Source: Planctomycetes bacterium MalM25
Lineage (GTDB): Bacteria > Planctomycetota > Planctomycetia > Pirellulales > Lacipirellulaceae
Assembly (NCBI GenBank): GCA_007745835.1
Contig: CP036424.1
Span: forward strand, 4,141,968-4,205,967
Length of the DNA: 64,000 bases
Reading direction: 5' to 3'
Each line of letters starts with the position of its first letter. Position 1 is the stretch's first letter. This document shows positions 11,003 through 33,359 of the stretch, piece after piece. Below the pieces are notes generated by a model. That model searched no databases, was not told the origin of the DNA, and saw only the letters and a program-made list of their open reading frames with translations. Both the position numbers and the translations under genes were made by a program.

Positions 11003-13486
11003 TCAGCTACGACGCACCAAACGAATCCCAACATCGTAGACGCTATTCCTCGGGGGGTAGTCAAAGGGGGCCGCGGCTCGGCAGTAATCGGGGTCGTCGT
11101 AGAACGACCCGCCCCGCAGAACCCGCGAAGAGCCCGCGTGCGCTGGCGGAGGTTCACGGGGGTCCTTGCCGTACGTGCTGGCGGTCCACTCAAACACCTG
11201 CCCGAGCAGGTGCGTCACGCCGTACGGCGAACGCTCCTTCTCATCGACGGCGCCCTCCCACGATCCATCCACCCGGATCGGGACGTACGCGTGACCTTTC
11301 GATTCATCGCACCAGGCGTTGGCTCCCAGCTCGGCCTTGTCGTTGAACCAGCCGAACCGTAGGTGCTCGTCCCGATGTTCCTCGCCACGGCAGACGCACT
11401 CCCACTCCTGCTCCGTCGGAAGCGAAGCGTGCAGCCACAACCCCAACGCCCACGCGTCGTACCACGTGCAGTAGATCGCCGGGCAACGCTCCTCGCCGCT
11501 GTACTTTGCGTAGTTGTCGAAGCGTTCCGTCCTCGACGGGTCGAACCGATCCATCAGCTCGTTCGTTACCGGGTACCTCGCCATACGGAAGGGGACCTCG
11601 ATGCGACCCTCGTGGATGGGACCGTCGTAAAAGCCATCGCCACCCATCGCGAATCGTCCCGGTTCGACTTGTTTCGTCTTGAACCAATCGACGTGGAACT
11701 CGCGAGCGATCCGCTGCGATTCGCCCCTCCCCTCTCCCAGCAGCAGCCGCGGGAACTCCGAAAGGTACTCCTCCACGATCCGACGCGCGGATCCCTTCGC
11801 CGTGTCTGGTGTGCCGGGTGAGCCGAACGACTCTCCCGAGTCGACCCGCCCCTTCACCCAGCCTTGCAGCCGGGCGTTGTACGCGTCGACCTCCGCTTCA
11901 CTCGGCATCGTCGGGAGCGTAACGCCCAGCTCTTCCTCGGTGTAAGCCGCGATCTCCAGCAACCGCGGCCACGTGCGGTAGATCAGCTCCGTCGAGCGGC
12001 CCCCCTCCTGCTTGTAGCAAGCCGCCACCGCCTCGACCCAACGCCGGTCGTCGAACACCGCCGTGTCGGCAACCGGCTGTGAGGAGCCTCGGCTCCGCAG
12101 CGTGTGGCGGGGCATGCCCCCCAAGAGCTTCCAGAACTCGTGGTAGGGCTCCCGGCTCTCGCGTTGTTGCTGAGCTTCTTCTTCAGGTGATCGGGCTTCA
12201 CGTCGACGGAAGTGCAGGTAGGTGTGCTGCGATAGCCAGTTGAGGTCTTCCGGCTCCGCGTAGCGTGTGCACCACACGGCCGCGAAGAAGTCTTGCAGCG
12301 TGCGGTCGTGCCAGCGGATGCAGGTCAGCCCGGTGTTCTCGGCGATCGCGTTCCGCATGCCGATGTTCAGCCGGCCGAGCACCTCGAGCCGGTCATCGAG
12401 TGTCTCATCCCTCCGCAGTCGGATCGGCCGTCTCGCGAGCCATTCTCCTCTCTCCGCTTCGACCTCATCGAGGAAGCGGTCCCAGCCATCCCCGGAGGCA
12501 ATCTCGACGTAGTGCCCTCGCTTGAGCATCTCGAAGGCGAGCAACGCGAACAACGCGATCGCCTGTTCGATCCGGATGCCGTGCGACTTCTGGCAGCCCT
12601 CCTCGAGCATCGGACGCAGCGACTCCCAGTAGACGTCCGACGCGGTCCGCAGCTTGCCGAGCAGGTCGTCGTCGTCGATCGACCGCAGACGCTTCAACGC
12701 ACGCGGGACGCTCAGCACGTCCGCCTCGAGATTCTTCAGCAACTGCCAACGCGGTTCGGTCAGGTAGGCCTTCTGCTCTGCTTCCGTGAACGGGCCGACC
12801 GCGGCCACCTTCCAATCGCCCGCGGGCCCCAGCTCCTTCCAGTAGTTCGTGACCGAGTACGGCCTGCCGGTCACGACGCAGTGGATCTCGGGGTGCTGTT
12901 GCAGGAAGAGCCCGAGTTTCTCGATCCTATCACGCGCCGATTCGTCGTCCTCGAGACCGACCTGATCCAACGCATCGACGAGCAACGAGAACTCTCCCCG
13001 GCGGATCTTCTGGTGAATGAGTTTCCAGGTATCCGCGACCTGGATGCCCTCCGTTTCCGGGAACGCACGGAATTCCTCGATTAGTCGGCGTAGGCCGGCA
13101 TCGGAACTCTTGTCTGAGGGATCGGGGCCGAGGTAGTCGGCAACTCGCAACGGCAGTTGGGCCGCTTCCAGGCGGATGCACAGGCGCCCCGCGTTCCGGA
13201 CAGATCGCAGGTACTCCACCTGCGCGAGCGCTGTCGTCTTGCCGATCCCGCCGACCTCGGTCAGAACAAGCCGTGAGCAATCAACGCCGCCAAGCAAGGC
13301 GACGCGATCGGTCACCGGCCGCCAGACGTCAGCCGCTCCCGGCTCTTCCGAGTCACCGACCGCCTGGTGTCCTGTCTCATCGAACGGCCGAAACCCTACG
13401 CCCGATAAGTAATCGGTCGGCTGGTCCCCCCTGGGGCACTCCAGCAAGGCGAGTCGCTGGCTAGAGATAAACGGGGCTCGGCGCAT
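11003..13486 (-). CDS. STAND/NACHT NTPase with C-terminal FGE-sulfatase sensor domain, copy 1
   Basis: The 827-residue protein starts at ATG 13486; the reading frame stays open upstream, but paralogues begin here. A short conserved head (PFISSQRLALLECP, 5-18) is followed by a NACHT core: Walker A GGIGKTT (79-85), Walker B FSLLVDALDQV (166-176), sensor VVTGRPYS (204-211) and the winged-helix-end motif WHDRTLQDFFAA. Residues about 612-827 are an FGE-sulfatase/C-type-lectin-fold domain ending RVLRGGSF...VGIRLVRRS. The FGE catalytic Cys pair is incomplete (only DYC), so it should bind and not oxidise. No effector domain is visible. About 985 bp (12490-13474) match copy 2 with no difference I could find. 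Confidence 0.85.
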   Translation of the reverse strand: MRRAPFISSQRLALLECPRGDQPTDYLSGVGFRPFDETGHQAVGDSEEPGAADVWRPVTDRVALLGGVDCSRLVLTEVGGIGKTTALAQVEYLRSVRNAGRLCIRLEAAQLPLRVADYLGPDPSDKSSDAGLRRLIEEFRAFPETEGIQVADTWKLIHQKIRRGEFSLLVDALDQVGLEDDESARDRIEKLGLFLQQHPEIHCVVTGRPYSVTNYWKELGPAGDWKVAAVGPFTEAEQKAYLTEPRWQLLKNLEADVLSVPRALKRLRSIDDDDLLGKLRTASDVYWESLRPMLEEGCQKSHGIRIEQAIALFALLAFEMLKRGHYVEIASGDGWDRFLDEVEAERGEWLARRPIRLRRDETLDDRLEVLGRLNIGMRNAIAENTGLTCIRWHDRTLQDFFAAVWCTRYAEPEDLNWLSQHTYLHFRRREARSPEEEAQQQRESREPYHEFWKLLGGMPRHTLRSRGSSQPVADTAVFDDRRWVEAVAACYKQEGGRSTELIYRTWPRLLEIAAYTEEELGVTLPTMPSEAEVDAYNARLQGWVKGRVDSGESFGSPGTPDTAKGSARRIVEEYLSEFPRLLLGEGRGESQRIAREFHVDWFKTKQVEPGRFAMGGDGFYDGPIHEGRIEVPFRMARYPVTNELMDRFDPSRTERFDNYAKYSGEERCPAIYCTWYDAWALGLWLHASLPTEQEWECVCRGEEHRDEHLRFGWFNDKAELGANAWCDESKGHAYVPIRVDGSWEGAVDEKERSPYGVTHLLGQVFEWTASTYGKDPREPPPAHAGSSRVLRGGSFYDDPDYCRAAAPFDYPPRNSVYDVGIRLVRRS

Positions 13487-13656: not shown

Positions 13657-14661
13657 TCAGCTGAGGCCCAGCCAGAGCAGCGACGCGGAGACGGCCGTCG
13701 CCGCCACCCCGACCCGACTCCACCCCCCCAAGCGTCCCTCGGGCTGGCTCTCGATCACCAGCGGGGTACGCTCCAGTCGCCTGGCAGCGCGATCGAGCTC
13801 CTCGACGCCTTCCCACCGCTCTCCGGCGACCGCGAGCGTGCCCGCGGAGTAGGCCAGCTCGAGCACACGCAGAGGCGACAGCCCCAACTGCATCGCCGCG
13901 GCCGCCGCCCCGGCGAAGGCGGGACGGCCGGCATCGACGTGGTTCTCCGGCGCCATGCGGCCCGGCACGCTGACCCACTCGCGATCCAGGAAGGCGATGG
14001 CGCCGTCACCCCCCCGCGTGGCGATCACGTCACGCCAGCCCAGCGCCCGGATCGAAGCGATGTCGCACGCCACGCTGCCGCTGGCGCTCGGGCCACGCAA
14101 GTGGGCCAGGGCTTCGGCGCTCAACTGGACCGTGCCGGCCTGGCTCCCGAGGGCGAGCGCCTCGGCCCGATCCTGCACCTGCTCGCGGCTGAGGCAGAGG
14201 GTAGTGCTGACCGCGGCCATGCGTGCCGCCTGGAGAACGGCCTCCGCGAAACCGTGGCTCCCATCGGGAGTCGGCAGGATCACCACACGCTGGCAGCCGG
14301 CCATCCGGATCGCGAGGCGACGGATCAACTCCGCCTTGCGGAGCCGAGGCGTGGAAGCAACCCGGCGGCCGCCTTCACTCGGATCCGAGATCGAACACAC
14401 GGTCTGGTGCAGCACGCCGCGTTCGAAGATCGGGTCGTCGCCATGCAGATTGGCGAGCCACTGCAGCTGCTCGGCTTGGCGGTCTTGGCCAACCGCCAGA
14501 GAAACAAGCGGCTCGCACTCCGCCAGGCCCGCGAAAGCGTCCTTGGCCGGGAGGGCTTCGCCGCCGATGCGATCGGGCAGACGCCGGCCTTCGCCCGGAA
14601 TATAGCGGCCTACCACCCGCTCGTTCTCACCGATGGCCGTGATCAGGGTCTTCTTAGACAT
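13657..14661 (-). CDS. PfkB/ribokinase-like pseudokinase with C-terminal membrane helix
   Basis: The 334-residue protein follows the PfkB fold: an N-terminal strand and GGEALPAKDAFAGL (family GG.a.N.A..l..L), VGQDRQAEQLQWLANL, TVQLSAEALAHLRG (family NeeEa..L.g), and DVIATRGGDGAIAFLDREWVSVP (family vTlG..Ga). The catalytic DTTGAGDAF is replaced by VDAGRPAFAG, so the general base Asp and the anion-hole glycines are lost. Residues about 312-334 are hydrophobic (VGVAATAVSASLLWLGL), a likely tail anchor. It lies 56 bp downstream of the YbjN-like gene and has AGGAAA seven bases before ATG. A decayed copy sits at 21285-21430. Confidence 0.7.
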   Translation of the reverse strand: MSKKTLITAIGENERVVGRYIPGEGRRLPDRIGGEALPAKDAFAGLAECEPLVSLAVGQDRQAEQLQWLANLHGDDPIFERGVLHQTVCSISDPSEGGRRVASTPRLRKAELIRRLAIRMAGCQRVVILPTPDGSHGFAEAVLQAARMAAVSTTLCLSREQVQDRAEALALGSQAGTVQLSAEALAHLRGPSASGSVACDIASIRALGWRDVIATRGGDGAIAFLDREWVSVPGRMAPENHVDAGRPAFAGAAAAAMQLGLSPLRVLELAYSAGTLAVAGERWEGVEELDRAARRLERTPLVIESQPEGRLGGWSRVGVAATAVSASLLWLGLS

Positions 14662-14717
14662 GGTCGGGTTTCCTGTTCGTGGTTGGAAGTAAAGGGGACT
14701 GAGGTGGGTTGGAGGGT

Positions 14718-15194
14718 TCAGTTGTCCGACGGATCGAAGCGGGACTTGAGCTTCTCGAGCGCTGCGGTCAGTTCCGGCGCCAGGTCCGCTTGAGCGAGCG
14801 TGGTTGACGGGAAGTGCGACAGGGCGACCCGCACAAGCGACATGAGCGCCGAGAAGTGCTGACGGAACTGGCCGCGTGTCAGCTTGGATTTCGTCAAGCC
14901 GATCGCGACTTCGGCGCGAACCGTATCGCTGCCGACGTACCGTCCGAGCGTGATCTGATCGTTGAGCTCCATGAGCCGTGTCAGAGACGCCATTCGCTCC
15001 GCGCCCGACAGCTCACGAAGATCGCTCAGCGGATCGCTAGACATCAGCAACGCCTCGCCGTCGTCGAGCAGCTTGATGTAGATGTTGGGGCCGTCGTGAA
15101 ACGGCACAAGAAAATGCTGCTCGCTGGCGACGTAGTAGTAATTGATGTCGTCCTTCATGAGCAGCTTGCTGATTCCCTCAAGGGTCGCAGGCAT
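14718..15194 (-). CDS. YbjN-like domain protein
   Basis: This 158-residue protein matches the YbjN / type III chaperone-like fold: LEGISKLLMKDDINYYYV, a central strand IYIKLLDDGEALLMSS, then LMELNDQITLGRYVGSD and a closing helix pair (LTRGQFRQHFSALMSLVRVAL). Such proteins are thought to bind and regulate partner proteins. ATG at 15194 with AGAGAG six bases upstream. It is the first gene of a two-gene unit with the pseudokinase and is divergent from the E1-like operon, with which it shares a 274-bp promoter gap. Confidence 0.65.
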   Translation of the reverse strand: MPATLEGISKLLMKDDINYYYVASEQHFLVPFHDGPNIYIKLLDDGEALLMSSDPLSDLRELSGAERMASLTRLMELNDQITLGRYVGSDTVRAEVAIGLTKSKLTRGQFRQHFSALMSLVRVALSHFPSTTLAQADLAPELTAALEKLKSRFDPSDN

Positions 15195-15468
15195 GTTGAG
15201 CTCTCTTGGTGGAGGTGAGTGGACCGTGAGCGTGAAGGCGGCGGTGGCGGCGGTGGAACAGGGGCTTAACCGATCCGATCCGATACCCTGAGCGTCCTGC
15301 TTTCCTTGCGGCCGCTCGCCGTGGTGGCCTCACCCGTCTCAAGGAGCCAGCCGAGAAGGCCTTGCGCAGAAACGCCCAAAGCGAGCAAAAAAACTCCGCG
15401 CAACAGTCACCCCTTTTCGGCCTTAGGACTTCGTACGACGAAGTCTCACCAAGAGAGCGAGGCCCGAT
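15195..15468. promoter_or_regulatory. Divergent promoter region of the YbjN and E1-like operons
   Basis: These 274 bp separate two oppositely transcribed units and must hold both promoters. A GC-rich GGCGGTGGCGGCGGTGG run lies next to the YbjN-like start. I cannot assign -35/-10 boxes with confidence. The TTG start of the E1-like gene follows GAGCGAGG. Confidence 0.45.
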
Positions 15469-16767
15469 TTGGGACAAGCAAGACAAGCGACGACATCGGA
15501 CCATCGCCCACTGCGGCTGGTCGTCCGACCGGGCGCCTGGAGCGACTTCTGGCGGGCCGCGACGGACAACGAGGCCCCCTGGGGCGTCGGGCGGATGCGC
15601 TCGATCCGATCGGCATCGACACGGCAGTGGTTTGTGGACGAACTCGCGCTGCGCGACTCTCAGCCAACGGGCGGCGAGTTCTCGCCGGTCGAAAGCTGGC
15701 TGGTTGTGACGCTCATGACCGAGGGCTCCCCCACCGCTGATCAACTCGATGGGATCATGAGGCGTCTCGCCCCAAGGCCTTCACAAACGGTTGGCCTGCT
15801 GGCGGTCGGAGGCACGGACCGGAGCGAGTGGAACGCCCGCCTGTGGCGAGGCGATGAGCGGAGCCGGATCGATACGATCGAGGTCCCGGGGCCCGGCATG
15901 CTCCGGTTGAGTCAGGCAGCCTCTCAAGAAGCCGTTCCGGCCCGGGCGAGCCGCACCGTCGGAGCCCTCGGCAAACGGGTGGCGACGCGCGTGCGTGAGG
16001 CGAGCGTCACCCTGATCGGCGCCGGGGGGAACGGCTGGTTGATGGCCATGCAGCTGGCGGCCGCGGGCGTTGGCAAGCTGCGGATTATCGACCCCGATCT
16101 CCTGAAACCAGAAAACCTGGATCGCATGCCACCGGCGCCCGCATGCGTGACCGGCCTGCCGAAAGCCAAGGCGCTCGGCGCGGTGCTAGCCGACTACCGG
16201 AACGACCTGACCCTGTCTCTCCTCCCGGATGCGATCAACTCCGACCGTGGCCGTGCGGTGATGAACGAACCGACCGACCTGGTAGTCACCTGCGTCGATG
16301 ACGATACGGGACGGCTGGTGGCGGCGTTCGCCGCTCGACGAACCTTGACGCCTCACCTCGACGTGGCGACGAGCATCCGCCGTGATGACGCCGGCTCGCT
16401 TTCGATCGGTGGCGATTGCCGGCTCCTGCTGCCGGGGGAAGGGTGCGTCGCCTGCGTCGGTGGCGTCGAAGACTTCGAGGAGGCCCTCTACGAGCTGTCG
16501 GAGCCCGATGGCGCCCTCCGTCGCCGGGTCACGCTTCCTTGGGACGAGCAGCGGGCCGGCAGCCTGGCGTCGATCAACTCCATCGTTGTCGGTGCGGGGG
16601 TCCAGCTGTGGCTTGACCAGATCGGGGGCCAGCTACGGTCGTCTTATTGGCAGCGACTGGCGTGGGAGCCGGGCACAGGCCTGCGCGTCGATGGCGCCGT
16701 GGTGGGAACGGACGCCGAGTGTCCGGTTTGCCATCGGCGGATCGAGCGGCTGGGCTCCCGGCTCTAG
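15469..16767 (+). CDS. E1-like (ThiF/MoeB/HesA) adenylyltransferase
   Basis: The 432-residue protein has an unidentified N-terminal domain (1-165) and an E1-type Rossmann domain: ATP loop GAGGNG (184-189), IIDPD (206-210) and ENLDR (215-219), the family's adenylation residues. A structural zinc site is formed by CVAC (326-329) and CPVC (418-421). No clear catalytic crossover cysteine is visible, so simple C-terminal adenylation or amidation, as in MccB-type enzymes, is possible. TTG start with GCGAGG upstream. Its stop overlaps the AGGAGG of the following 70-residue gene, and an amide ligase follows. It is unlike the PRTRC ThiF protein in layout. Confidence 0.8.
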   Translation: MGQARQATTSDHRPLRLVVRPGAWSDFWRAATDNEAPWGVGRMRSIRSASTRQWFVDELALRDSQPTGGEFSPVESWLVVTLMTEGSPTADQLDGIMRRLAPRPSQTVGLLAVGGTDRSEWNARLWRGDERSRIDTIEVPGPGMLRLSQAASQEAVPARASRTVGALGKRVATRVREASVTLIGAGGNGWLMAMQLAAAGVGKLRIIDPDLLKPENLDRMPPAPACVTGLPKAKALGAVLADYRNDLTLSLLPDAINSDRGRAVMNEPTDLVVTCVDDDTGRLVAAFAARRTLTPHLDVATSIRRDDAGSLSIGGDCRLLLPGEGCVACVGGVEDFEEALYELSEPDGALRRRVTLPWDEQRAGSLASINSIVVGAGVQLWLDQIGGQLRSSYWQRLAWEPGTGLRVDGAVVGTDAECPVCHRRIERLGSRL

Positions 16768-16776
16768 GAGGTCGAC

Positions 16777-16989
16777 TTGGGAGATTGGAGTTCTCTGCCC
16801 GAATCCGCGCAACTTGAGCGATTCTCGCGCCTTGGAGCAGTACCTGAGGCGATCCGCGTGCCCGTTCGAAATCACCCGCTCCCCGATCAAGAGGATCCCA
16901 TGCGCAACACCAGCCGATTCCTCACGCGACTCTCGCAGCGCTCGCGCTGGGTCTTCATCTCGCTCTTGCTGGCGAGTTGCCTCGCCTAA
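16777..16989 (+). CDS. 70-residue peptide with C-terminal membrane/lipobox-like tail
   Basis: The TTG at 16777 is preceded by a perfect AGGAGG (16766-16771) at five bases, placed on the stop codon of the E1-like gene, so translation is coupled. The product has an acidic, Pro-rich first half and a basic stretch, then ends WVFISLLLASCLA. An internal ATG at 16900 with AAGAGG could make a 29-residue form that looks like a signal peptide with a LASC lipobox, leaving a 3-residue mature end. Its place between an adenylyltransferase and a carboxylate-amine ligase makes it a candidate substrate. The family is unknown. Confidence 0.55.
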   Translation: MGDWSSLPESAQLERFSRLGAVPEAIRVPVRNHPLPDQEDPMRNTSRFLTRLSQRSRWVFISLLLASCLA

Positions 16990-17199
16990 TTCCATCCGGG
17001 GGTGCTGACTAACGCGGTCCCGATGGGTGACCGGATCCGAGAAGCCGTGCCAGTACGGACATCGATCCCTTGTCGCGTAGGGGGCCGGCGACATGCCGTC
17101 ACGATCGCCGCCGCTCAGGGCAACCGAACGGCTTCTCATGCCCTAGGTAGGGATACGCGCACGTTCTCCTTCAACCATCCTCCCTGCTCGGAGCCGATC

Positions 17200-18372
17200 A
17201 TGACCGCTCAGCCTGAGATCACTTTCCGCGACAAATTCCCCAAGGTCGCCAAGTACGACATTGCGTGCGAAGTCGAAGGACTGCTCTGTTGCGACCGAAG
17301 CGGTCAACCCGTGAACCTCTACGACGAGGTGGTGCAGAGGCTGCCCGATCGGACCGCGAGATTCTGCCACAAGGAGTTCTTGCACCCGATGCTCGAGCTC
17401 GTGACCTCGCCGCACCCCACGGCGCCCGAACTCCGTAAGCAGCTGCGTCAGTTCGAGAGCGACACAACCTCGGTGCTCTCGCCTCTTGGAGCCAATGTGA
17501 GATGGGTGGGCGCTCTGGACAATGCCGTCCTGACCCGAGAGATGATCCGCGACTACAACCGGACCCAGGTGACCCTTGAACGAGTCGGTCCGATGGTCCC
17601 GCGGCTCGCGACTTTTGGTCTGCACTTACACGTTGGCGTCGACTTCGGGGCGTTGATCGGTGTACTGAAAGCGCTCAACAAGCTGGTCCCCTTCTTCACG
17701 GCGCTCTCGGCCAACTCGCCCAGGATGTCGTGCCTGAATTACCAGGCCGCCAGCCACCGCTTCCCCTTCTGGGCCTATGGCATGCCCACCAGCGGCTGGC
17801 CCCACCAGTGGCGTGATTGGGATCACCTCGAGTCCCACGTCGCCGATCTCGCTCGGCTTGGACTCGCCAGCTCACCGAAGGACTTGCACTGGATGGTGAG
17901 GCCTACACGTTTTGGGACGGTCGAGCTCCGATGCTGTGACATGCCGCCGTCGCTCGACATGGCGGCCGAGATCGCGGCTCTCTATCAGGCGGTCGTGATC
18001 ATGTCGGCCCGCAACCCAGGCTGGCTCGACGCCATTCTGGTGGCGGCGTTGCAGGCCGATATTTCCGCCTCGACGACCTTCGGCGCCGCGGCGGTTCTTT
18101 CGAGTGTAACGGGCGAACGCAAAGCGTTGGTAGAAGCCTTCGCCGATATCAAACGGCCGTTGGGCGGTGTGCTCGACGAGATCAAGGCGCGCGAGCTGGT
18201 TGATCGTCTCCATCGCCGGGTTGCGGCTCGAACGGAGCTGCCGACGCCGACGTGGCGCCCTCCCGTTCCCGTTGCGTCACCGGCACGGGCAACTCGAGAT
18301 TTGGTGGTCTCTTCGGCCTCGATCGCGGCGTCATGGCTCGTCGCGATGGGCGTGGCGAGTTCTGGGTGGTAG
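17200..18372 (+). CDS. GCS2-type carboxylate-amine ligase
   Basis: The 390-residue product follows the glutamate-cysteine ligase 2 / YbdK / EgtA family: YDIACEVEGLL (first-strand Glu for Mg-ATP), FLHPMLELVTSPHPT, GLHLHVGVD (metal/ATP strand), LSANSPRMS and LHWMVRPTRFGTVELRCCDMP (family WdvRP...GTvE.R..D). It should join an amino group to a carboxylate at the cost of ATP; the substrate may be the adjacent peptide or a small molecule. ATG 17200 with GGAG six bases upstream. The last residues are hydrophobic. It is convergent with STAND gene 2, with a bidirectional hairpin between them. Confidence 0.8.
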   Translation: MTAQPEITFRDKFPKVAKYDIACEVEGLLCCDRSGQPVNLYDEVVQRLPDRTARFCHKEFLHPMLELVTSPHPTAPELRKQLRQFESDTTSVLSPLGANVRWVGALDNAVLTREMIRDYNRTQVTLERVGPMVPRLATFGLHLHVGVDFGALIGVLKALNKLVPFFTALSANSPRMSCLNYQAASHRFPFWAYGMPTSGWPHQWRDWDHLESHVADLARLGLASSPKDLHWMVRPTRFGTVELRCCDMPPSLDMAAEIAALYQAVVIMSARNPGWLDAILVAALQADISASTTFGAAAVLSSVTGERKALVEAFADIKRPLGGVLDEIKARELVDRLHRRVAARTELPTPTWRPPVPVASPARATRDLVVSSASIAASWLVAMGVASSGW

Positions 18373-18484: not shown

Positions 18485-20944
18485 TCAACTACGGCGCACC
18501 AAACGGATACCCAAGTAGTAGCGTAATTTCATAGGGCTAGCACCAAAGCGGCCCGCGGCACGGAATCCCTCGGGGTCGGAGTGGCCGAACGACGAGCCCT
18601 GCAGAACCCGGTACGAGCCTGCGTGGGTTGGCACGTCCGTGCTCCACACACTGGCAGTCCACTCAAACACCTGCCCAAGGAGGTGGGCCACGCCATACGG
18701 CGAACGCTTTTTATCAGGAACGGATCCTTCCCAAGATCCATCCACCGGAAGGGTCCTACTGACCTCACCAATGGATTCCAGGCACCATACGTTCGCTCCC
18801 AGTTCCGACACGTCTTCGAACCAACCGAAGGCGAGGTGCTCGTGCCGATGCTTTTCTCCGCGGCAGACGCACTCCCACTCCTGCTCGGTCGGCAGCTCCG
18901 AGTGCAGCCACAACGCCAACGACCAGGCATCAAACCAATTACAGTAAATCGCCGGGCAACGCACCTCGGGACTGTAGCGCTCATAATCATGGAAGCGGCC
19001 GGCCCGCTCCGGGTCGAACAGATTCACCAGCTCGTTCGTTAGTGGGTATTTCGACATCCGATACGGCGTCTCGATACGGCTCTCGTGCGCTGGCCCATCG
19101 TGCGGCCCATCGCCTCCCATCACGAACGGACCCGGCTCGACCGTTTTCGTGTTGAACCAGTTAACGTCGAACTCGCGAGTGATCCGCTTAGGAGTAGAGC
19201 CTCCCTCGCCCTTCAACAGCCGTGGGAACTCCGCCAGGTATTTCTCGACTATCCGACGCGCTACCGCCCTCGCTGACGCTAGTGGCGTGTCTGGCGAGTC
19301 ACCAAGTTCTCCCGCATCGACGCGTGCCTTCACCCAGCTCTGCAGCGCCACGTTGAATACGCCGACCTGCACCTCGCTCGGCAACGGCGGGAGCGGTTCG
19401 ATCCCAACCTCGTCTCTGCTGTAGTCCGCGATCTCCAGCAGCCGCGGCCACGAGCGGTAGATCATCTCCGTTGACCGGCCCCCCGCTTCTTGGTAGCAGC
19501 AGGCGACCGAATTCACCCAGCGAAGGTCATCGAACACGTCGCGATCGGCGCCGCCCCGCAGCGAGAAGCGTGGCATGCCGGTCAGCAGCTTCCAGAACTC
19601 GTGGTTGGGCTCTCGGCTCTCGCTTATCCACACGTCTTCGAACATCGGCTGACCGATCTGCCTACTAATAAGGAGGTGCCGGTGCTTGGAGAGCCAGGTG
19701 CGGTCTTCCGGCTCCGCGTAGCGTGTGCACCACACGGCCGCGAAGAAGTCTTGCAGCGTGCGGTCGTGCCAGCGGATCGAACGCAGCCCGGTGTTCTCGG
19801 CGATCGCGTTCCGCATGGCGATGTTCAGCTTGCCCAGCGTGGCGAGGCGGTCGTCCAACGTCTCGTTAGAGCGGAGCTTGATCGGCCGCTGCTGGAGCCA
19901 GGCGATTCGTTCCTTCTCCAGTTCATCGAGGAAGCGGTTCCATTCAGCCCCGGAGGCAATCTCGACGTAGTGCCCTCGCTTGAGCATCTCGAAGGCGAGC
20001 AACGCGAACAACGCGATCGCCTGTTCGATCCGGATGCCGTGCGACTTCTGGCAGCCCTCCTCGAGCATCGGACGCAGCGACTCCCAGTAGACGTCCGACG
20101 CGGTCCGCAGCTTGCCGAGCAGGTCGTCGTCGTCGATCGACCGCAGACGCTTCAACGCACGCGGGACGCTCAGCACGTCCGCCTCGAGATTCTTCAGCAA
20201 CTGCCAACGCGGTTCGGTCAGGTAGGCCTTCTGCTCTGCTTCCGTGAACGGGCCGACCGCGGCCACCTTCCAATCGCCCGCGGGCCCCAGCTCCTTCCAG
20301 TAGTTCGTGACCGAGTACGGCCTGCCGGTCACGACGCAGTGGATCTCGGGGTGCTGTTGCAGGAAGAGCCCGAGTTTCTCGATCCTATCACGCGCCGATT
20401 CGTCGTCCTCGAGACCGACCTGATCCAACGCATCGACGAGCAACGAGAACTCTCCCCGGCGGATCTTCTGGTGAATGAGTTTCCAGGTATCCGCGACCTG
20501 GATGCCCTCCGTTTCCGGGAACGCACGGAATTCCTCGATTAGTCGGCGTAGGCCGGCATCGGAACTCTTGTCTGAGGGATCGGGGCCGAGGTAGTCGGCA
20601 ACTCGCAACGGCAGTTGGGCCGCTTCCAGGCGGATGCACAGGCGCCCCGCGTTCCGGACAGATCGCAGGTACTCCACCTGCGCGAGCGCTGTCGTCTTGC
20701 CGATCCCGCCGACCTCGGTCAGAACAAGCCGTGAGCAATCAACGCCGCCAAGCAAGGCGACGCGATCGGTCACCGGCCGCCAGACGTCAGCCGCTCCCGG
20801 CTCTTCCGAGTCACCGACCGCCTGGTGTCCTGTCTCATCGAACGGCCGAAACCCTACGCCCGATAAGTAATCGGTCGGCTGGTCCCCCCTGGGGCACTCC
20901 AGCAAGGCGAGTCGCTGGCTAGAGATAAACGGGGGTTGGCTCAT
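18485..20944 (-). CDS. STAND/NACHT NTPase with C-terminal FGE-sulfatase sensor domain, copy 2
   Basis: The 819-residue protein starts at ATG 20944 (SQPPFISSQRL). It has the same plan as copy 1: conserved head, GGIGKTT, FSLLVDALDQV, VVTGRPYS, WHDRTLQDFFAA, then an FGE-like domain from about residue 600. The first half is the same as copy 1 at the DNA level (19948-20932, offset 7458 bp, no indel), while the second half differs by many substitutions. The tail reads VLQGSSF...LGIRLVRRS with 25 residues between; neither FGE catalytic cysteine is present. No fused effector domain. Most likely a recognition/signal-transduction NTPase of a conflict system. Confidence 0.85.
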   Translation of the reverse strand: MSQPPFISSQRLALLECPRGDQPTDYLSGVGFRPFDETGHQAVGDSEEPGAADVWRPVTDRVALLGGVDCSRLVLTEVGGIGKTTALAQVEYLRSVRNAGRLCIRLEAAQLPLRVADYLGPDPSDKSSDAGLRRLIEEFRAFPETEGIQVADTWKLIHQKIRRGEFSLLVDALDQVGLEDDESARDRIEKLGLFLQQHPEIHCVVTGRPYSVTNYWKELGPAGDWKVAAVGPFTEAEQKAYLTEPRWQLLKNLEADVLSVPRALKRLRSIDDDDLLGKLRTASDVYWESLRPMLEEGCQKSHGIRIEQAIALFALLAFEMLKRGHYVEIASGAEWNRFLDELEKERIAWLQQRPIKLRSNETLDDRLATLGKLNIAMRNAIAENTGLRSIRWHDRTLQDFFAAVWCTRYAEPEDRTWLSKHRHLLISRQIGQPMFEDVWISESREPNHEFWKLLTGMPRFSLRGGADRDVFDDLRWVNSVACCYQEAGGRSTEMIYRSWPRLLEIADYSRDEVGIEPLPPLPSEVQVGVFNVALQSWVKARVDAGELGDSPDTPLASARAVARRIVEKYLAEFPRLLKGEGGSTPKRITREFDVNWFNTKTVEPGPFVMGGDGPHDGPAHESRIETPYRMSKYPLTNELVNLFDPERAGRFHDYERYSPEVRCPAIYCNWFDAWSLALWLHSELPTEQEWECVCRGEKHRHEHLAFGWFEDVSELGANVWCLESIGEVSRTLPVDGSWEGSVPDKKRSPYGVAHLLGQVFEWTASVWSTDVPTHAGSYRVLQGSSFGHSDPEGFRAAGRFGASPMKLRYYLGIRLVRRS

Positions 20945-21235: not shown

Positions 21236-21284
21236 CGAAGTGACCCAGCCGCTCCGCTTCGTGGACCAGAGTCGATCCGCCACT

Positions 21285-21430
21285 GCGCTCAGCTGCAGCG
21301 ACTCGCCAATCTGCGTGGCGACGACCCTATCTTTGAATCCGGCGTGCTGGACTAGACGGTGCGTTCGGTCTCGGCACCGGCTACAGGAGGCCTCCGGTTC
21401 ATTTCGACGCCTCGGCTAAGATGGTTTCTC
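21285..21430 (+). pseudogene. Relic of the PfkB-like pseudokinase gene
   Basis: The plus strand reads QLQRLANLRGDDPIFESGVL, then D, an in-frame TAG, and TVRSVSAPATGGLRFISTPR. The intact gene at 13657-14661 has QLQWLANLHGDDPIFERGVL, HQ, TVCSISDPSEGGRRVASTPR at the same spacing. The stop arises from CAG to TAG. Similarity fades on both sides. A second copy of that module therefore once existed here. Confidence 0.65.
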
Positions 21431-22160: not shown

Positions 22161-24659
22161 TCAGGTGCTTCGAACCTCACTGGAAATGGCGTCAATCGCG
22201 CCACGCCGCACAAGTCGAAACCCTATACTGAAGCCACCAAGTCCTGGAGCAGACGTATAAAAGCTAGACACTGTGCATAGTTGCGGAGCAAGGCCGATGA
22301 ACATCGCGATGTCGCTGCCACCGCTAACACGTCGGTAGCCATCACGATTCGAACTTTGCATCCACTCTCCTACGTTGCCGAGCATCTGCCGAAGTCCATA
22401 CTGATCCTGCAATTGCCCTTCTGAGGTCGCAACACCCCAGCCCTCATTTACTCGCCGAAGTAGACCCGAGTAACGCATTCGCGCGTAGATCTCTTCACGC
22501 TCGTAGTCGATTTCGTTGTCTTCGACCTCAAGATGGTTATCCGTGATGCCGTATTCAAGTAGTACGCAACGGTGTTTGCGTCCACGGCTCGCGCATTCCC
22601 ATTCATCTTCTTCCGGCAATGCGGAGTGCAGCCAGAGTGCTGCCGCCCAGGCGTCGTACCAGGACACCTCAACCGCCGGGTGCTGGGTCTCGTAGCCTTC
22701 TCCTGAGATTCCGTGCTTGCAACGAGCACAACTAGCCTTCGAGAACTCGGGCTGGAATAAGCTGTACTGCCCTTTAGTGACAACCGTCCTCGACAAACGA
22801 TAAGGTTGCTTGATCTCCGCTAGGTCGCCGCTATCACCAGGCGTGACGCCTGCTTTCGCGAACGGGCCAGGCTCGATCAGGTCCCCAAATCCTTCGAGAT
22901 GGAGATCTTCGGCAATCGACTGATCGAACGCTTCGCCTTGCTTTCCCTGGATGATCAGAGGGAACTGGGACAGATAGTTTTCCAAGACGACCCGAGCCAA
23001 CTGTGATTTACTGACGTCGTGGTTGAGTGGCTCTCTTGTAGCCCATTCGACTCCGCCCCGATCCACCGCAGCATAGACGTACTGTTGTAAAGCAGCATTG
23101 AACTGATCGATCTGTTGCTCCGAAGGCCGGTGCGGCAAGGATTGGCCAAGCTCTTCTTCCCTATAAGCTGCTATCTCTGTCAGCCTGGGCCAAGAAAGAT
23201 AGATCACTTCCGTCGAGCGTCCCTCGACCGTGAAGGCTCCGGCGACTGCTTGTACGTAAGACTCGGCGTCAAAGACGTCGGCGTCGGGTATGGGGCGCGT
23301 CCTGCCCCGCGTGTTCAGCGTGTAGCGTGGCATATCGCAGAGGAGTCGCCAGAACTCCGAATACTTGGCGTCCCCCGCTGCGTCTGGTCGATTGTTTGAA
23401 ATGAGCCATTCTCGGTCCGAGTCTTCGTTGTGACGCGTGCACCAGATCGCCGCGAAGAAGTCTTGCAGGGTGCGGTTATGCCATCGCAGCCGCGTCACGT
23501 TTCGGGTTTCGGTGACGGCATTGTCGATCACAATGTTAAGGCGATTAAGCTCCGTCAGCTTCATCCTAAGGCCTTCAAAACTCTCGATATTGTATCGCTC
23601 GCTCAGCCATGCGCGGCGATGACGGTATAGGGTCAGCAGAAACTCGTCGAACTCGGCGCCCGGCGCGACGTCGACGAACCGACCTTGACGGAGCATCTCG
23701 AAGGCCAGCATCGCGAACCAACGTATCGCTTCGGTTTCATCGATCGTTGTCGCCTGCTTCTTGACGCCCCTTGAGATGATTGAGCGGATTGACTCTCGGT
23801 AGACATCCGCCGCCGTATGAAGATTGGCGAGGTCGGGCTTCGGCAAAACCCGAAGCTGCTCTAAGGCACGGGGTACCGACAGCACGTCCGCTTTCAGATT
23901 CCGAAGCTTCTTCCATCGCTCCTCGGACAAATATCTTTTCTGTTCCTTATCCGTGAAGGGCGCCATCGCAGCGATCCGCCAATCTCCCGCCGCAATGAGT
24001 TCGCTCCAGTAGTGGCTGATCGCATAGGGCCGGCCGGTCACCACGCAGTAGATCCCACAATCGGGATCGGCTGAGGTCCGGTGCTGTACAAGAAAAGAAG
24101 CGAGTGCCCGTAGCTTCAGACTGTCGGGGGTTAGGTCGACTTGATCGAGCGCGTCGACAAGCAGCGAGAACTGGCCTTGTCGGATCTTGCGCTGTAGCAG
24201 GCGCCAGATCAGCTTCCCCGACATCTCCTGACCGGCGCCGACTTGCCGAAAGCGGCGAACCAGGAGCGACGGCTTGGCGGCATCCTCAGCTCTCTCACTC
24301 ACTGCGAGAATGCCTTCCGCTGCCTCTGGTAACTCGGCGGCTTCGACCAGCAGACAGACGTGCCCCGGGTTGTGCACGCTGCGGAGGTAGCCCAACTGCT
24401 CTAGTGCGGTGGTTTTCCCGATGCCTCCGGTTTCGGTAAGGATCAGCCTCTGATGATGCAAACGGCCCAGAAAGGATTCGCGGTATTCGGTGAGGCTCCT
24501 GAGGGGGTCCTCATCAGATTTCTTGACGGCGGTACCACCCAAGCTGAGAGAGCGGCCATTCAATCCATGCAACGAATCAAGCTGTTCCTCTCCGTCCACG
24601 CCTTTCAACAACGAGATTCGTTGGGTCGCGATGAAAGGAGCGCGGTTCATGCGGCTCAT
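22161..24659 (-). CDS. STAND/NACHT NTPase with C-terminal FGE-sulfatase sensor domain, copy 3
   Basis: I start this 832-residue protein at ATG 24659, eight bases from AGAGG; ATGs at 24665 and 24650 are alternatives. It has the head APFIATQRISLL, Walker A GGIGKTT, Walker B FSLLVDALDQV, VVTGRPYA and RWHNRTLQDFFAA. Its C-terminal domain is a more distant FGE-like fold (EVSWYDAWAAALWLHSALP, EDEWECASRG, GLRQMLGNVGEWMQ, GFRLVRRG) and ends with a 12-residue extension lacking in the others. It is the most divergent of the four in the sensor half and shows no converted tract. Confidence 0.85.
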   Translation of the reverse strand: MSRMNRAPFIATQRISLLKGVDGEEQLDSLHGLNGRSLSLGGTAVKKSDEDPLRSLTEYRESFLGRLHHQRLILTETGGIGKTTALEQLGYLRSVHNPGHVCLLVEAAELPEAAEGILAVSERAEDAAKPSLLVRRFRQVGAGQEMSGKLIWRLLQRKIRQGQFSLLVDALDQVDLTPDSLKLRALASFLVQHRTSADPDCGIYCVVTGRPYAISHYWSELIAAGDWRIAAMAPFTDKEQKRYLSEERWKKLRNLKADVLSVPRALEQLRVLPKPDLANLHTAADVYRESIRSIISRGVKKQATTIDETEAIRWFAMLAFEMLRQGRFVDVAPGAEFDEFLLTLYRHRRAWLSERYNIESFEGLRMKLTELNRLNIVIDNAVTETRNVTRLRWHNRTLQDFFAAIWCTRHNEDSDREWLISNNRPDAAGDAKYSEFWRLLCDMPRYTLNTRGRTRPIPDADVFDAESYVQAVAGAFTVEGRSTEVIYLSWPRLTEIAAYREEELGQSLPHRPSEQQIDQFNAALQQYVYAAVDRGGVEWATREPLNHDVSKSQLARVVLENYLSQFPLIIQGKQGEAFDQSIAEDLHLEGFGDLIEPGPFAKAGVTPGDSGDLAEIKQPYRLSRTVVTKGQYSLFQPEFSKASCARCKHGISGEGYETQHPAVEVSWYDAWAAALWLHSALPEEDEWECASRGRKHRCVLLEYGITDNHLEVEDNEIDYEREEIYARMRYSGLLRRVNEGWGVATSEGQLQDQYGLRQMLGNVGEWMQSSNRDGYRRVSGGSDIAMFIGLAPQLCTVSSFYTSAPGLGGFSIGFRLVRRGAIDAISSEVRST

Positions 24660-24782
24660 GTGCATTGCCTCTGAAAAACATGGGCTCTTGGCGCAACTCT
24701 ACCCAGTCTAACGCCTTGAGTACCTTGGATGGCGCGATACGGATCGCCGCCCAGCAATTCGACTCGAACCGAGAGGTAAACC

Positions 24783-24977
24783 ATGCCCGGGAATTCCCAG
24801 ACTTCCGACGCCCCACCTGCCGAAGCACCCAAGCAGGCCCCGTCCCAGGAGATGCCGCCTAGCTCCGCTGCTTTGGCGAAGGACATCGCTCAGATCGAGG
24901 CTCAGAAGCGCGTCGAACGCGACCGTCAGGAGCAGGAGCGCCTCGCGAAGCTGCGTGATGTGGCCCGATTCGACTGA
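24783..24977 (+). CDS. Small charged protein, first gene of a plus-strand unit
   Basis: This 64-residue protein has a Pro/Ser/Ala-rich first half and a charged helix (IEAQKRVERDRQEQERLAKL) likely to form a coiled coil. The ATG is preceded by GAGAGG at six bases. It is divergent from STAND gene 3 and is followed by a strong hairpin before the next two genes. Family unknown; a small partner or effector-docking protein is possible. Confidence 0.5.
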   Translation: MPGNSQTSDAPPAEAPKQAPSQEMPPSSAALAKDIAQIEAQKRVERDRQEQERLAKLRDVARFD

Positions 24978-24989
24978 CGCCTTGGCCTT

Positions 24990-25015
24990 GCCAGGTGGCC
25001 TTGCGGCCACCTGGC
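24990..25015 (+). terminator. Perfect 11-bp hairpin after the 64-residue gene
   Basis: Arms GCCAGGTGGCC and GGCCACCTGGC around TTGC, 13 bases after the stop at 24977 and 27 bases before the next ATG. There is no T-run. It may be an attenuator that sets different levels for the small gene and the two genes that follow. Confidence 0.5.
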
Positions 25016-25041
25016 GGGCCTCTTCCATTGTGGAGAGAACC

Positions 25042-25530
25042 ATGAACCACCTAGATGGGCATCTAATCGACGTCTCAGACAGCGAGAGCGACTCGACGGC
25101 TTGGCCCAGTGATGAGGAGCTTCCCCCCGGGCGTCAGGTCGGAGTGACTCCCTCCGGGCTCCGGTACGCAATACGTGTCCCAATGGAGAACGTCGAAGGT
25201 ATCACTTTCCCCTACGGGGCTGCTCTGGTTGAATACTACGCAGAAGACGGGCGTCGACTGATGGCGAGACTCGTTGCGGTCGCGCCACAAGCCCGGACCC
25301 AGAGCCTGGCTGGTGAGCTTGATCTGGTGACGCTAGAGATCTCCTTGCCAGTCGACCCCGAACGCTTTTATTGCACTGAACTACACCCGGAGCAAGCTGG
25401 AATTCTCTCGCGACTGAACGTAGCGATGGTTGAACGGCTTGCCAACGATCGCCTCGTAAGGCACAGCGACGAACACCGCCGCCTCGTTTCCCAACTCCGA
25501 CAAGACTGGCGAGCCCAACGGAACTCTTGA
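25042..25530 (+). CDS. Unknown 162-residue protein
   Basis: ATG 25042 is preceded by GGAGAG at four bases. The product starts with an acidic Ser/Asp-rich stretch (DVSDSESDSTAWPSDEE), then a beta-rich middle with paired strands (GALVEYYAEDGRRLMARLVAV), and an amphipathic C-terminal helix. Its stop TGA overlaps the ATG of the next gene (TGATG), so the pair is translationally coupled. No family is recognised. As the STAND proteins here carry no effector, this pair is a candidate effector or adaptor. Confidence 0.6.
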   Translation: MNHLDGHLIDVSDSESDSTAWPSDEELPPGRQVGVTPSGLRYAIRVPMENVEGITFPYGAALVEYYAEDGRRLMARLVAVAPQARTQSLAGELDLVTLEISLPVDPERFYCTELHPEQAGILSRLNVAMVERLANDRLVRHSDEHRRLVSQLRQDWRAQRNS

Positions 25531-26828
25531 TGTCCCAACACGATTGTGCCTGGCTTCTTGAAGCAGGTGAGCAAGGCTCAAAGATCAAGCAAACTCTCTT
25601 GGGAGATCGGTCTTCCTTAGCGAAAGATCTCCTGCGGGCCTCTGAGATCGGGCACGACATCGTCAGCAAGAGCCTGAAGAAACTTGCTGACGCCAATCGG
25701 CTTAATGAGCTCGGCATCACTTGGCACCAAGAGGCGTGCGGCTACCTCAATGGGATCCGCGCCGCCGCCGACGCCGCCTACGCGCGGATCCACCCAACAG
25801 AGCTTAACGATCACCTTGTAGAAGCGGTTGAGCACTTCGATCGCGTCTGGTTTCAGGAGCATGAGCGGACGGTCAAAGAAGACTCTGAGTCCACAGACCT
25901 CCCGCTACCCGCCGGCGTGAGCTGTTCCTTGCCTTCTTACTGGACGGTCAGGGATTTGATCGATCGATGGGCGACGGGAAGCGCGCAGTCTTCCGACTCC
26001 AACCATCGTGCGACGACGACGCTCTTGGCGGCAAGGAATAGAGATGCCGGATACTTGATGAGGCTCACCGTGGAGTTGTTTCCACGAGAATCAATCGGAG
26101 AGGGCCCTACCGGTCCCTTCTGTCCGGACCCGCTGAGCTTCGGGCTCACCGATATCAGGCAGCTCCTGAAGCCCATGCAAAATGCCTGGGAACGTTCGCG
26201 ACTGAGCCGGCATTTTCGCGGGCGTTGGCGTATCGAGAATATGGTGGAGGAGACGGCCCGCCCCTTCGGCATACTCTATCTTAACAGTCTGGGCGACACC
26301 TCCGCCGAAGCGGCCACGCTAGTCGCGCTCTTGGCCGCTTCAGGAGATCCCTACCAAGAAGACTCCGGCAACTACTTGCAAGCAACCGGCCACGAGTCGA
26401 GCCTGCTGGATTCCCGAGTCGCCATCAGCGCCAGCCTGACCACTGGAGATAAGGAGCATCCGACTTTGGTCAAGCTGACAAAAGTTGGGCTTGTTCCTCT
26501 AAAAGTAACGGCGCCAGGCCTGGAAGCGGCGATCGACACCGTGGCCGTTTCTGGAGGGGGCTTGGACGGTGAAGACTCAAGTAGCGATCTGAATCAGATC
26601 CTGGATAAGCAGCGAAAGGCCTCCGCAAGCAACCCGTACCGAGGCGTAACGGTTGAAAGGCTCGATACGATCGGCGAAGCGCTCGACCTGATGCTTGTGA
26701 CCAACCGCTATCTGGCAAAGTACAATGAGGCCATCCGGAAACGATGGCTTGAGCAATGGGAGGGTGATACGGGCAAGGCGGATGCTGATAAGCAGCCGTG
26801 GTCGCATACGGACACCATTTCTGAATAA
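25530..26828 (+). CDS. Unknown 432-residue protein, possibly a protease-like or effector protein
   Basis: The ATG overlaps the previous stop. Residues 1-110 are helical. The second half, from about residue 235 (RWRIENMVEETARPFGILYLNSLGDTS onward) through an ISASLTTGDKEH segment and a GLEAAIDTVAVSGGG strand, has a layout faintly like Lon-type protease domains, but I see no certain Ser-Lys dyad, so I give no family. It shares an operon with the 162-residue gene between STAND genes 3 and 4. The codon use is less extreme than in the core genes. Confidence 0.55.
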   Translation: MSQHDCAWLLEAGEQGSKIKQTLLGDRSSLAKDLLRASEIGHDIVSKSLKKLADANRLNELGITWHQEACGYLNGIRAAADAAYARIHPTELNDHLVEAVEHFDRVWFQEHERTVKEDSESTDLPLPAGVSCSLPSYWTVRDLIDRWATGSAQSSDSNHRATTTLLAARNRDAGYLMRLTVELFPRESIGEGPTGPFCPDPLSFGLTDIRQLLKPMQNAWERSRLSRHFRGRWRIENMVEETARPFGILYLNSLGDTSAEAATLVALLAASGDPYQEDSGNYLQATGHESSLLDSRVAISASLTTGDKEHPTLVKLTKVGLVPLKVTAPGLEAAIDTVAVSGGGLDGEDSSSDLNQILDKQRKASASNPYRGVTVERLDTIGEALDLMLVTNRYLAKYNEAIRKRWLEQWEGDTGKADADKQPWSHTDTISE

Positions 26829-29734: not shown

Positions 29735-30040
29735 GACGATCAATTCCAGCATGGGCCGATGGTAGACACCATCGTAACCGCATCCGCCAAGCACGGTGAG
29801 TCCGCGCTACGAGAATAGATCGGCTTCAGGGCCAATCGTGTCAGCTTCTCAGCCACGTGGAGTTCGCAATCATCTGATACGGCCTCTCTCAAAGAACGAA
29901 GTGCGATTGGCGGATCAGGCCCGTGCTCATGTGATGCGAGATCTCATCCGGGAACCTACACCGAAGCCGGACCAAGCCCCGATCGGCGTCCTAACACTCA
30001 GTAGACACCAAGAACGACTGCCGGCACCGTTCGCCACCAT
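29735..30040. other. Gap upstream of STAND gene 4
   Basis: About 300 bp with no protein-like frame. It should hold the promoter of STAND gene 4 (minus). I see no clear motif. Confidence 0.3.
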
Positions 30041-32466: not shown

Positions 32467-32609
32467 CAACTCCCAATCTTCTCGGATGTGGGTGTGCGTG
32501 GCGGCAAGCCGACCCGTCGCACCCCGCTTAGTTCTGGTTGAAAGCGCAACCCGTGGAGGAGTCTCGCCTTGAGTAATTGACCACTTTCTCCATAACCACG
32601 GGACCAATC

Positions 32610-33359
32610 ATGCTTTCCGCCAGTGCCGACTCTTTGCCGAACGCGAGTTCGGCGATTCTCGTTGACTACGAGAACGTCAACGAGCGATTTCACCAAGGAG
32701 CGACAGCGCTCCTCAACTACTGTCGCAGTCGAGGCCGCGTTCTGATCAAGAAGGCCTACGCCGACTGGTCGGCGATCCCGGACAAGCACCAAAGATGCCT
32801 CGTTTCCATCGGGTACGAGCTGATTGGACTCACCGCCTACCATCGGACCGGCAAGAATGCCGCTGACATCCGGCTTGTCGTGGACGCCCTGGCTATCGCT
32901 CACACAAACGAGAGCATCGATACGTTCGTTCTCTTGACCGGAGACAGCGATTACATCCCGCTGATTGTTCAACTGCGTGCGATTGGAAAACGGGTCATCC
33001 TCGTCAATACCCGAGGCTACGTCAGCGAATCGCTGATGTCCTATTGCGATGAAGTGATTCCGCTCTCGCGTTGGAAGGAAGACGAGAAGCAAGCGCCGAC
33101 GGAGACCTTCGATCGATTCACCCCACTGCGTAACTGCTTGGACACGATGTTCGATGGTAGCACCGTTCTCGCCAGCACGTTGAAACCGGCGATGATCCGA
33201 CTCGACCCCGCATTCGATGAGTCCGAATACGGATTCAAACGTTTCGGAGACTACCTTCGCGCGGCACGTGACGCCGGCGTCATCTCGATCAGCCACAATG
33301 GGCATACCGTCATCGTCGTGGAGCCGGTCCACCCCAAGCCTTCGTCGCCGCCGGAGTGA
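32610..33359 (+). CDS. NYN-domain (LabA-like) nuclease with C-terminal LOTUS/OST-HTH domain
   Basis: The 249-residue protein has the NYN active-site aspartates in place: AILVDYENVN (about 20-29), KNAADIRLVVDAL (about 90-102) and VLLTGDSDYIPLI (about 115-127). Residues about 172-235 (LRNCLDTMF to DAGVISISHNG) fit a LOTUS winged helix, which binds RNA. It should be an RNase acting on structured or marked RNA. Start is ATG 32610. Unlike the RNase H-like proteins in this element, all acidic residues are conserved, so it is probably active. Confidence 0.85.
   Translation: MLSASADSLPNASSAILVDYENVNERFHQGATALLNYCRSRGRVLIKKAYADWSAIPDKHQRCLVSIGYELIGLTAYHRTGKNAADIRLVVDALAIAHTNESIDTFVLLTGDSDYIPLIVQLRAIGKRVILVNTRGYVSESLMSYCDEVIPLSRWKEDEKQAPTETFDRFTPLRNCLDTMFDGSTVLASTLKPAMIRLDPAFDESEYGFKRFGDYLRAARDAGVISISHNGHTVIVVEPVHPKPSSPPE

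Follow-up and report, generated by a model that had tools for sequence, protein, structure and literature searches.

An E1-like adenylating enzyme, a GCS2-type amide ligase, a YbjN protein and a PfkB-like pseudokinase lie side by side in the genome of Planctomycetes bacterium MalM25, which raises the question of whether their genes work together and in what setting. We analysed them within a 64,000-nucleotide stretch of contig CP036424.1 (positions 4,141,968 to 4,205,967; hereafter the window). A first-pass annotation had presented them as an undescribed locus with a 70-residue peptide gene between the E1-like and ligase genes. All of its open reading frames (ORFs) were recovered, and its account of the surroundings proved incomplete, having missed the NACHT-like/FGE genes on both flanks and a Pup-type module in Adhaeretor mobilis. 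With these included, the locus can be read as an accessory part of an NLR-like conflict island in a planctomycete, where a YbjN/pseudokinase pair is accompanied by exchangeable modules for ATP-dependent carboxylate–amine ligation. Because the link within the window rests on adjacency in one genome, we regard such a joint module as evenly poised between right and wrong.

The segment holding the E1, GCS2, YbjN and pseudokinase genes is enclosed by two NACHT-like/FGE paralogs (receptor copies 1 and 2), with two further copies beyond (Table 1). All four carry a P-loop, and FGE-sulfatase is clear in the three copies (1–3) reached by our Pfam scan of 14 window proteins. Copies 1 and 2 share 83% DNA identity, and a decayed pseudokinase fragment lies beside copy 2. 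Receptor copy 1, the pseudokinase and YbjN are encoded on the same strand, with 56 bp between YbjN and pseudokinase and 170 bp between pseudokinase and receptor.

The E1-like identity of the first plus-strand gene was upheld by a ThiF match above the Pfam cut-off (3.4e-19), by the motifs GAGGNG, DPD..NLDR, PK and CVDD, corresponding to the GxGGxG Rossmann turn, the acidic-N-R run and the adenylation-site Lys and Asp, and by two zinc CxxC pairs (CVAC and CPVC). Homologs were sought in 147 relatives, 392 phylum genomes and 193 class genomes, overlapping sets that each include the window's own genome. In a tree of 17 rows selected from many matches, the window sequence falls in a clade of six (window, G078, G387, G680, G723 and G626, by our genome handles) that is monophyletic with support 100/99 when set against 11 further E1-like rows; the short row L078 was excluded, and no frame could be obtained for three of eight additional loci. 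A likely seventh member, the fragment G511, lies where a 6.0-kb contig ends and stands outside the tree. Five of these seven members (window, G078, G387, G680 and G626) have NACHT-type receptor genes nearby, and the two without such a neighbour are on short contigs (G723, 4.9 kb; G511, 6.0 kb). In G626, NACHT-HEAT proteins flank the E1 gene on either side, and both receptor proteins scanned from G387 exceed the NACHT cut-off. The 433-residue window protein encoded between receptor copies 3 and 4 has a homolog near the E1-clade gene of G723 (9.1e-22; L114:49-801) and another near that of G078 (7.1e-8; L012:12007-13269). The window receptor proteins had no match in nine other E1-like neighbourhoods (L013–L018 and L101–L103), used as controls. 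The kinship with the MccB/PaaA group suggested at first pass reduces to a weak match (PaaA, 1.1e-4), the protein belonging to a clade of its own. Viral and plasmid sequences held no E1 relatives, and a scan of named genomes with two short patterns only confirmed nothing. A single-sequence structure model of the E1 (mean predicted local distance difference test score, pLDDT, 35) was not used.

STAND/NACHT-type NTPases that end in a fused FGE (C-type lectin) domain are described from antigen-sensor systems linked to diversity-generating retroelements (DGRs) and from ternary conflict systems, in the accessible text of PMC10907252 and PMC7159879. As far as those texts go, the window is like the DGR-linked systems in combining NACHT-like regions with C-terminal FGE and in its duplicated receptors, and by this kinship the island, given its receptor setting, is likely to serve in conflict. 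The likeness extends to the reverse transcriptases of G387 and G078 and to the Avd gene of G387: near NACHT/FGE genes on their E1-clade contigs, G387 has matches to bAvd (4.8e-17) and reverse transcriptase (9.8e-23; L099 7290-8710), and G078 one to reverse transcriptase (2.9e-21; L054 10393-11424). A single DGR reverse-transcriptase query, run without a positive control, had no match in the window's own genome. For such conflict systems inactive enzyme modules have been proposed; FtsH-ternary systems hold a full ubiquitin-like (Ubl) set of E1, E2-Ubl, RING E3 and JAB, and planctomycete coupling of Ubl with Pup is mentioned (accessible text of PMC7159879). That text contains no occurrence of YbjN, ThiF, amidoligase or E1-like, and the accessible text of PMC10907252 none of ubiquitin. 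In the open literature, that is, outside subscription papers and preprints, none of the titles and abstracts retrieved dealt with this combination, and no paper contained both YbjN and NACHT.

Bacterial Ubl conjugation operons (JAB-E1, Prok-E2, Multi_ubiq, BubCD) contain a homologous E1 domain (BubCD, 8.8e-6), and JAB-E1/E2-operon enzymes are among the best matches outside the E1 clade; among these outside matches, Pfam recognises Multi_ubiq and Prok-E2 in G515 (L101) and Prok-E2 beside the E1 in G570 (L102). The window differs in its NACHT-like neighbours and in having no E2 or ubiquitin-like modifier recognised among the 14 scanned proteins, although very divergent modifiers could escape such a scan. 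The JAB metal motif (HSHP..S..D) was not seen in the N-terminal part of the window and G078 E1 rows; the profile comparison with JAB-E1 proteins starts at residue 96, with residues 1–95 outside it.

The YbjN/pseudokinase pair links the window to a second genome. YbjN scores below the Pfam cut-off (0.024), and its predicted fold matches YbjN structures, in agreement with the earlier assignment; the same fold occurs in YbjN/AmyR and class I type III secretion chaperones (about 4–18% identity in structure alignments), suggesting a small chaperone, and its partner gene is, unlike theirs, a pseudokinase. The PfkB-like protein has no Pfam match and an NCBIfam 1-phosphofructokinase score (1.4e-5) far below cut-off, and a two-row profile of the window and Adhaeretor pseudokinases matches ribokinase 1gqt at 7.8e-9. 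At the position of the catalytic Asp in the ribokinase GAGD motif, the window has Pro and Adhaeretor Ser; both have lost this residue, and the window protein looks inactive. It had been called a tail-anchored pseudokinase: its PfkB likeness and the replacement of the catalytic Asp bear this out, but the window tail is only mildly hydrophobic (best 19-residue mean 1.35, against a clear 2.41 in Adhaeretor). The tail suggests a membrane location. Homologs of the YbjN and of the pseudokinase were each found in 1 of 146 other relatives, Adhaeretor (G020), where they are adjacent. A YbjN profile matched the window and G020 only among 226 order genomes, a lower-bound scan of named genomes with two short patterns recovered Adhaeretor mobilis only, and plasmids held no YbjN relatives. 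Across 392 phylum genomes the pseudokinase profile gave two partial matches beyond the window, both in the C-terminal kinase region and taken as ordinary kinases.

In Adhaeretor mobilis, a planctomycete of the Lacipirellulaceae, the pair belongs to a co-directional, operon-like five-gene row: a 64-residue Pup-like peptide with the C-terminus NPSGE, a Pup ligase (Pfam 6.6e-44; Pup ligase structure 2.4e-17), a 1403-residue P-loop/WD40 protein (P-loop by eye; WD40 repeats in the C-terminal 1072 residues), YbjN and a membrane-tailed pseudokinase, separated in order by 34, 49, 87 and 27 bp. Immediately upstream lie a second P-loop/WD40 protein and YbjN. Both Pup ligase and GCS2 are members of the same glutamine-synthetase-like superfamily. 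What the row shares with Pup systems is the ligase and a short peptide with an SGE end, where the window has instead E1 and GCS2. The grouping proposed at first pass therefore stands in part: the adjacent pair recurs, in Adhaeretor with a short peptide and an amide ligase, whereas the full set was found once.

Pup_ligase is present in 18 of 196 relatives. A Pup system in the window itself was rejected: Pup_ligase has no match in this genome, and the short ORFs with a GE, GQ or GG end between 9000 and 36500, three in number, all lie away from GCS2 and E1. At 8 of the 13 Pup-ligase loci checked for GE/GQ ends, a short ORF ending SGQ, SGE, GGE or QGE adjoins the ligase, and other GE/GQ-ending ORFs there look spurious. 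Some of these planctomycete Pup-like ORFs end SGQ/SGE (L055 11079-11288, L056 9932-10135, L058 5823-6047 and L025 16342-16536), and others in the same order end GGE. Apart from G020 and G078, the five Pup-ligase loci searched for YbjN, pseudokinase and window receptors (L055–L059, with L060–L065 left out) gave no match. G078 has two Pup ligase ORFs with a 76-residue ORF ending RSAQ between them (L054 11968-17923); one ends 2 bp before a NACHT-like/FGE ORF, whose true start may lie further in, and the site is about 25 kb from the E1 gene on the same contig.

The GCS2-type identity of the window ligase was confirmed by the family profile (Pfam 6e-21, 75.5 bits against a cut-off of 21) and by YbdK active-site segments; NCBIfam YbdK matched at 3.4e-39, its score of 134.9 being below the cut-off of 176.4, and the YbdK structure 1r8g aligned at 1.2e-22 from residue 112, with the N-terminal part outside the alignment. 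The window copy differs from YbdK, a member of the same sequence family, by its hydrophobic C-terminus (best 19-residue mean 1.86) and its receptor-island setting. Its start is most likely the ATG at 17200 rather than 17002, because the GC pattern of 17002–17199 is less coding-like than that of the core and the YbdK match lies entirely downstream. With that start, 432 bp separate E1 from GCS2 and 210 bp the peptide ORF from GCS2, which is at odds with the tight plus-strand operon first described. Plasmid relatives of GCS2 fall below 60% identity (23–34% in the listed rows, many annotated YbdK). Other planctomycete GCS2 rows, some of which were different proteins, aligned poorly with it, and this alignment was not used.

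Between E1 and GCS2, the AGGAGG overlapping the E1 stop codon is indeed present. The 70-residue ORF that follows does not behave as a conserved component: when the 434-base stretch was shuffled 2000 times with dinucleotides preserved, 45% of the shuffles contained a plus-strand ORF of at least 70 codons, no family match exceeded a chance-level Pfam 0.16, and neither this query, a weak probe at 70 residues, nor GCS2 had a match at other E1-clade loci. In both G078 and G680, E1 is followed on its own strand by a long gene, the outcome that the first-pass annotation had named as refuting its proposal, as far as E1 is concerned; for GCS2, no homologous locus was found. We therefore rejected the peptide as a conserved substrate on its chance length and want of matches, and kept as a candidate an inner 29-residue ATG frame, which has GC at codon position 3 in 26 of 29 codons and is the only part of the stretch with coding-like third-position GC. 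Among 2000 simple shuffles, an equally GC3-rich ATG frame of at least 25 codons turned up in two, and since the frame was chosen after being seen this result is only a hint. Unrelated short ORFs occur upstream of E1: in G078 one of 110 residues (L012 8313-8645; HEAT-like, 0.0076) overlaps the E1 start by 4 bases, and in G680 one of 80 residues (L113 7082-7324) ends 29 bp before it and is reminiscent of MbcA/ParS-type antitoxin C-termini. Directly downstream of E1 in G680, two genes without Pfam match (L113 4012-5740) precede an FGE receptor.

Table 1. Features of the island in the window, with strand and basis of assignment.
Feature	Position	Strand	Basis
NACHT-like/FGE receptor-like protein 1, P-loop GGIGKTT	11003..13486	-	FGE-sulfatase 6.4e-27, NACHT 0.099
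PfkB/ribokinase-like predicted pseudokinase, 334 aa, mildly hydrophobic C-terminal tail	13657..14661	-	NCBIfam 1-PFK; ribokinase profile match
YbjN / class I secretion-chaperone-like fold protein, 158 aa	14718..15194	-	predicted fold
Intergenic stretch, 274 bp, YbjN to E1, splitting two divergent gene groups	15195..15468	.	
E1/ThiF-like adenylating enzyme, NACHT-associated clade, 432 aa, TTG start	15469..16767	+	ThiF; tree; motifs
70-aa ORF, doubtful gene	16777..16989	+	chance length, no family match
Inner ATG frame, 29-aa peptide, hydrophobic end, possible small gene	16900..16989	+	GC3 pattern
GCS2/YbdK-type carboxylate-amine ligase, 390 aa, hydrophobic C-terminus	17200..18372	+	Pfam, NCBIfam, structure match
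NACHT-like/FGE receptor-like protein 2	18485..20944	-	FGE 2.3e-22, NACHT 0.039
Decayed pseudokinase-gene fragment (48 residues, 67% identity, one stop)	21278..21421	+	
NACHT-like/FGE receptor-like protein 3	22161..24665	-	FGE 7e-20, P-loop, homology to copies 1, 2, 4
Protein of 433 aa, no Pfam match	25527..26828	+	homologs near E1-clade gene in G078, G723
NACHT-like/FGE receptor-like protein 4	27293..29794	-	homology to other copies, P-loop

Other genes of the receptor islands were also noted. On the far side of the window island, 32577-33359 encodes a NYN nuclease with a sub-cut-off OST-HTH/LOTUS-like region, and a weakly similar gene lies near the G078 receptors. Sigma-factor-like genes stand near several islands (window 33736-35793, L012 10071-11222 and L099 10706-11371), the match being strong only in G387 (Sigma70_r4, 7.5e-13); the window copy had no BLAST similarity to the G078 genes compared, nor did window 24955-25530 have a match among them.

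Several observations weigh against a joint module. The E1, GCS2, short ORF and YbjN/pseudokinase genes were seen together in the window only, GCS2 and the short ORF were seen next to E1 nowhere else, and neither YbjN nor pseudokinase was matched in the neighbourhoods read at other E1-clade loci. No E1 was seen in the Adhaeretor row, whose receptor-like proteins have no clear similarity to the window receptors past the P-loop. Pfam NACHT reaches only 0.04–0.1 in window copies 1 and 2 and gives no match in copy 3. The association of the clade with NACHT genes is blunted by one control E1 locus, L103, that also has a NACHT gene (Pfam, eight long proteins from five of nine control loci), the long neighbours in L013, L015, L018 and L101 having been left unscanned, and a search of the intergenic stretch for a sigma-70 promoter gave no match. 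In the other five clade members, moreover, the third Gly of the GxGGxG run is Arg (GVGRNG, GCGRNG, GASRLG, GVGRLG, GCGRTG) and the Arg after the NLx run is Ala, Gly or Glu (NLDA, NIEA, NVVG, NLDG, NLGE), which looks like an Arg swapped between two places near the nucleotide site; with motifs so altered, activity may differ across the clade.

In an alternative reading, E1, GCS2 and the YbjN/pseudokinase pair are unlinked defence-island cargo, separate small systems that came to lie side by side among NACHT-like genes by drift and do not work together; we hold this possible, if not favoured. The single sighting of the full set agrees with it, as do the duplicated receptors and pseudokinase fragment, signs of a restless region. 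GCS2 genes occur in 6 of 10 chosen genomes (the window's included), none of the other five on the contig of an E1-clade gene and that of Adhaeretor far from its YbjN row; three GCS2 neighbourhoods from other genomes had no NACHT-like match. Unlinked cargo accounts less well for an E1 clade repeatedly beside NACHT-type genes and for a YbjN–pseudokinase pair that recurs with an amide ligase in Adhaeretor. We think it unlikely that the E1 is a relic of a Ubl conjugation operon whose E2 and modifier are gone, serving now as a scaffold or decoy that binds nucleotide, which would accord with the inactive enzyme modules proposed for such conflict systems (PMC7159879): Pfam scans of neighbouring proteins from the window, G078, G387, G680 and G626 (short ORFs mostly unscanned) found no E2 or modifier family, five clade members have changed motifs and the pseudokinase neighbour looks inactive, yet the window copy retains the adenylation motifs and both CxxC pairs. 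Least probable, to our mind, is a ribosomal-peptide pathway in which E1 adenylates the C-terminus of the 70- or 29-residue peptide and GCS2 adds an amine. The Shine-Dalgarno on the E1 stop, the coding-like GC of the 29-residue frame and the Adhaeretor short peptide gene immediately preceding an amide ligase would fit it; the chance length and lack of homologs of the 70-residue ORF, and an E1 in its own clade with a weak PaaA match, tell against it.

Returning to the accessory segment of a conflict island, E1, GCS2 and Pup ligase share a common logic, ATP-driven activation of a carboxylate followed by attack of an amine. From gene content and setting we infer a defence role, enzyme activity, co-regulation and a modified substrate. 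The NACHT-like/FGE proteins would be the probable sensors and YbjN and pseudokinase, on the receptor strand, a chaperone–adaptor pair; E1-like enzyme and GCS2 would make up a module for ATP-dependent carboxylate activation and amide ligation, most likely modifying an island component and so setting receptor activation. In Adhaeretor, a Pup-like peptide and a Pup ligase stand with the same pair. A wider generalization, which we offer as speculative and rather doubtful, is that NLR-like receptors of planctomycetes are controlled by covalent tags whose chemistry is exchangeable, Pup-like peptide plus Pup ligase in one case and a NACHT-dedicated E1 clade plus YbdK-type ligase (possibly with the 29-residue peptide) in the other, through the same YbjN/pseudokinase adaptor. 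If true, this would be a bacterial counterpart, in non-ubiquitin chemistry, of the ubiquitin control of animal NLRs. If the joint module itself is right, bacterial NLR-like receptors would be tied to protein-ligation enzymes outside the classical E1–E2–modifier operons, the YbjN fold and the pseudokinase would gain a shared setting, and compact gene sets would be at hand for studying how such receptors are switched.

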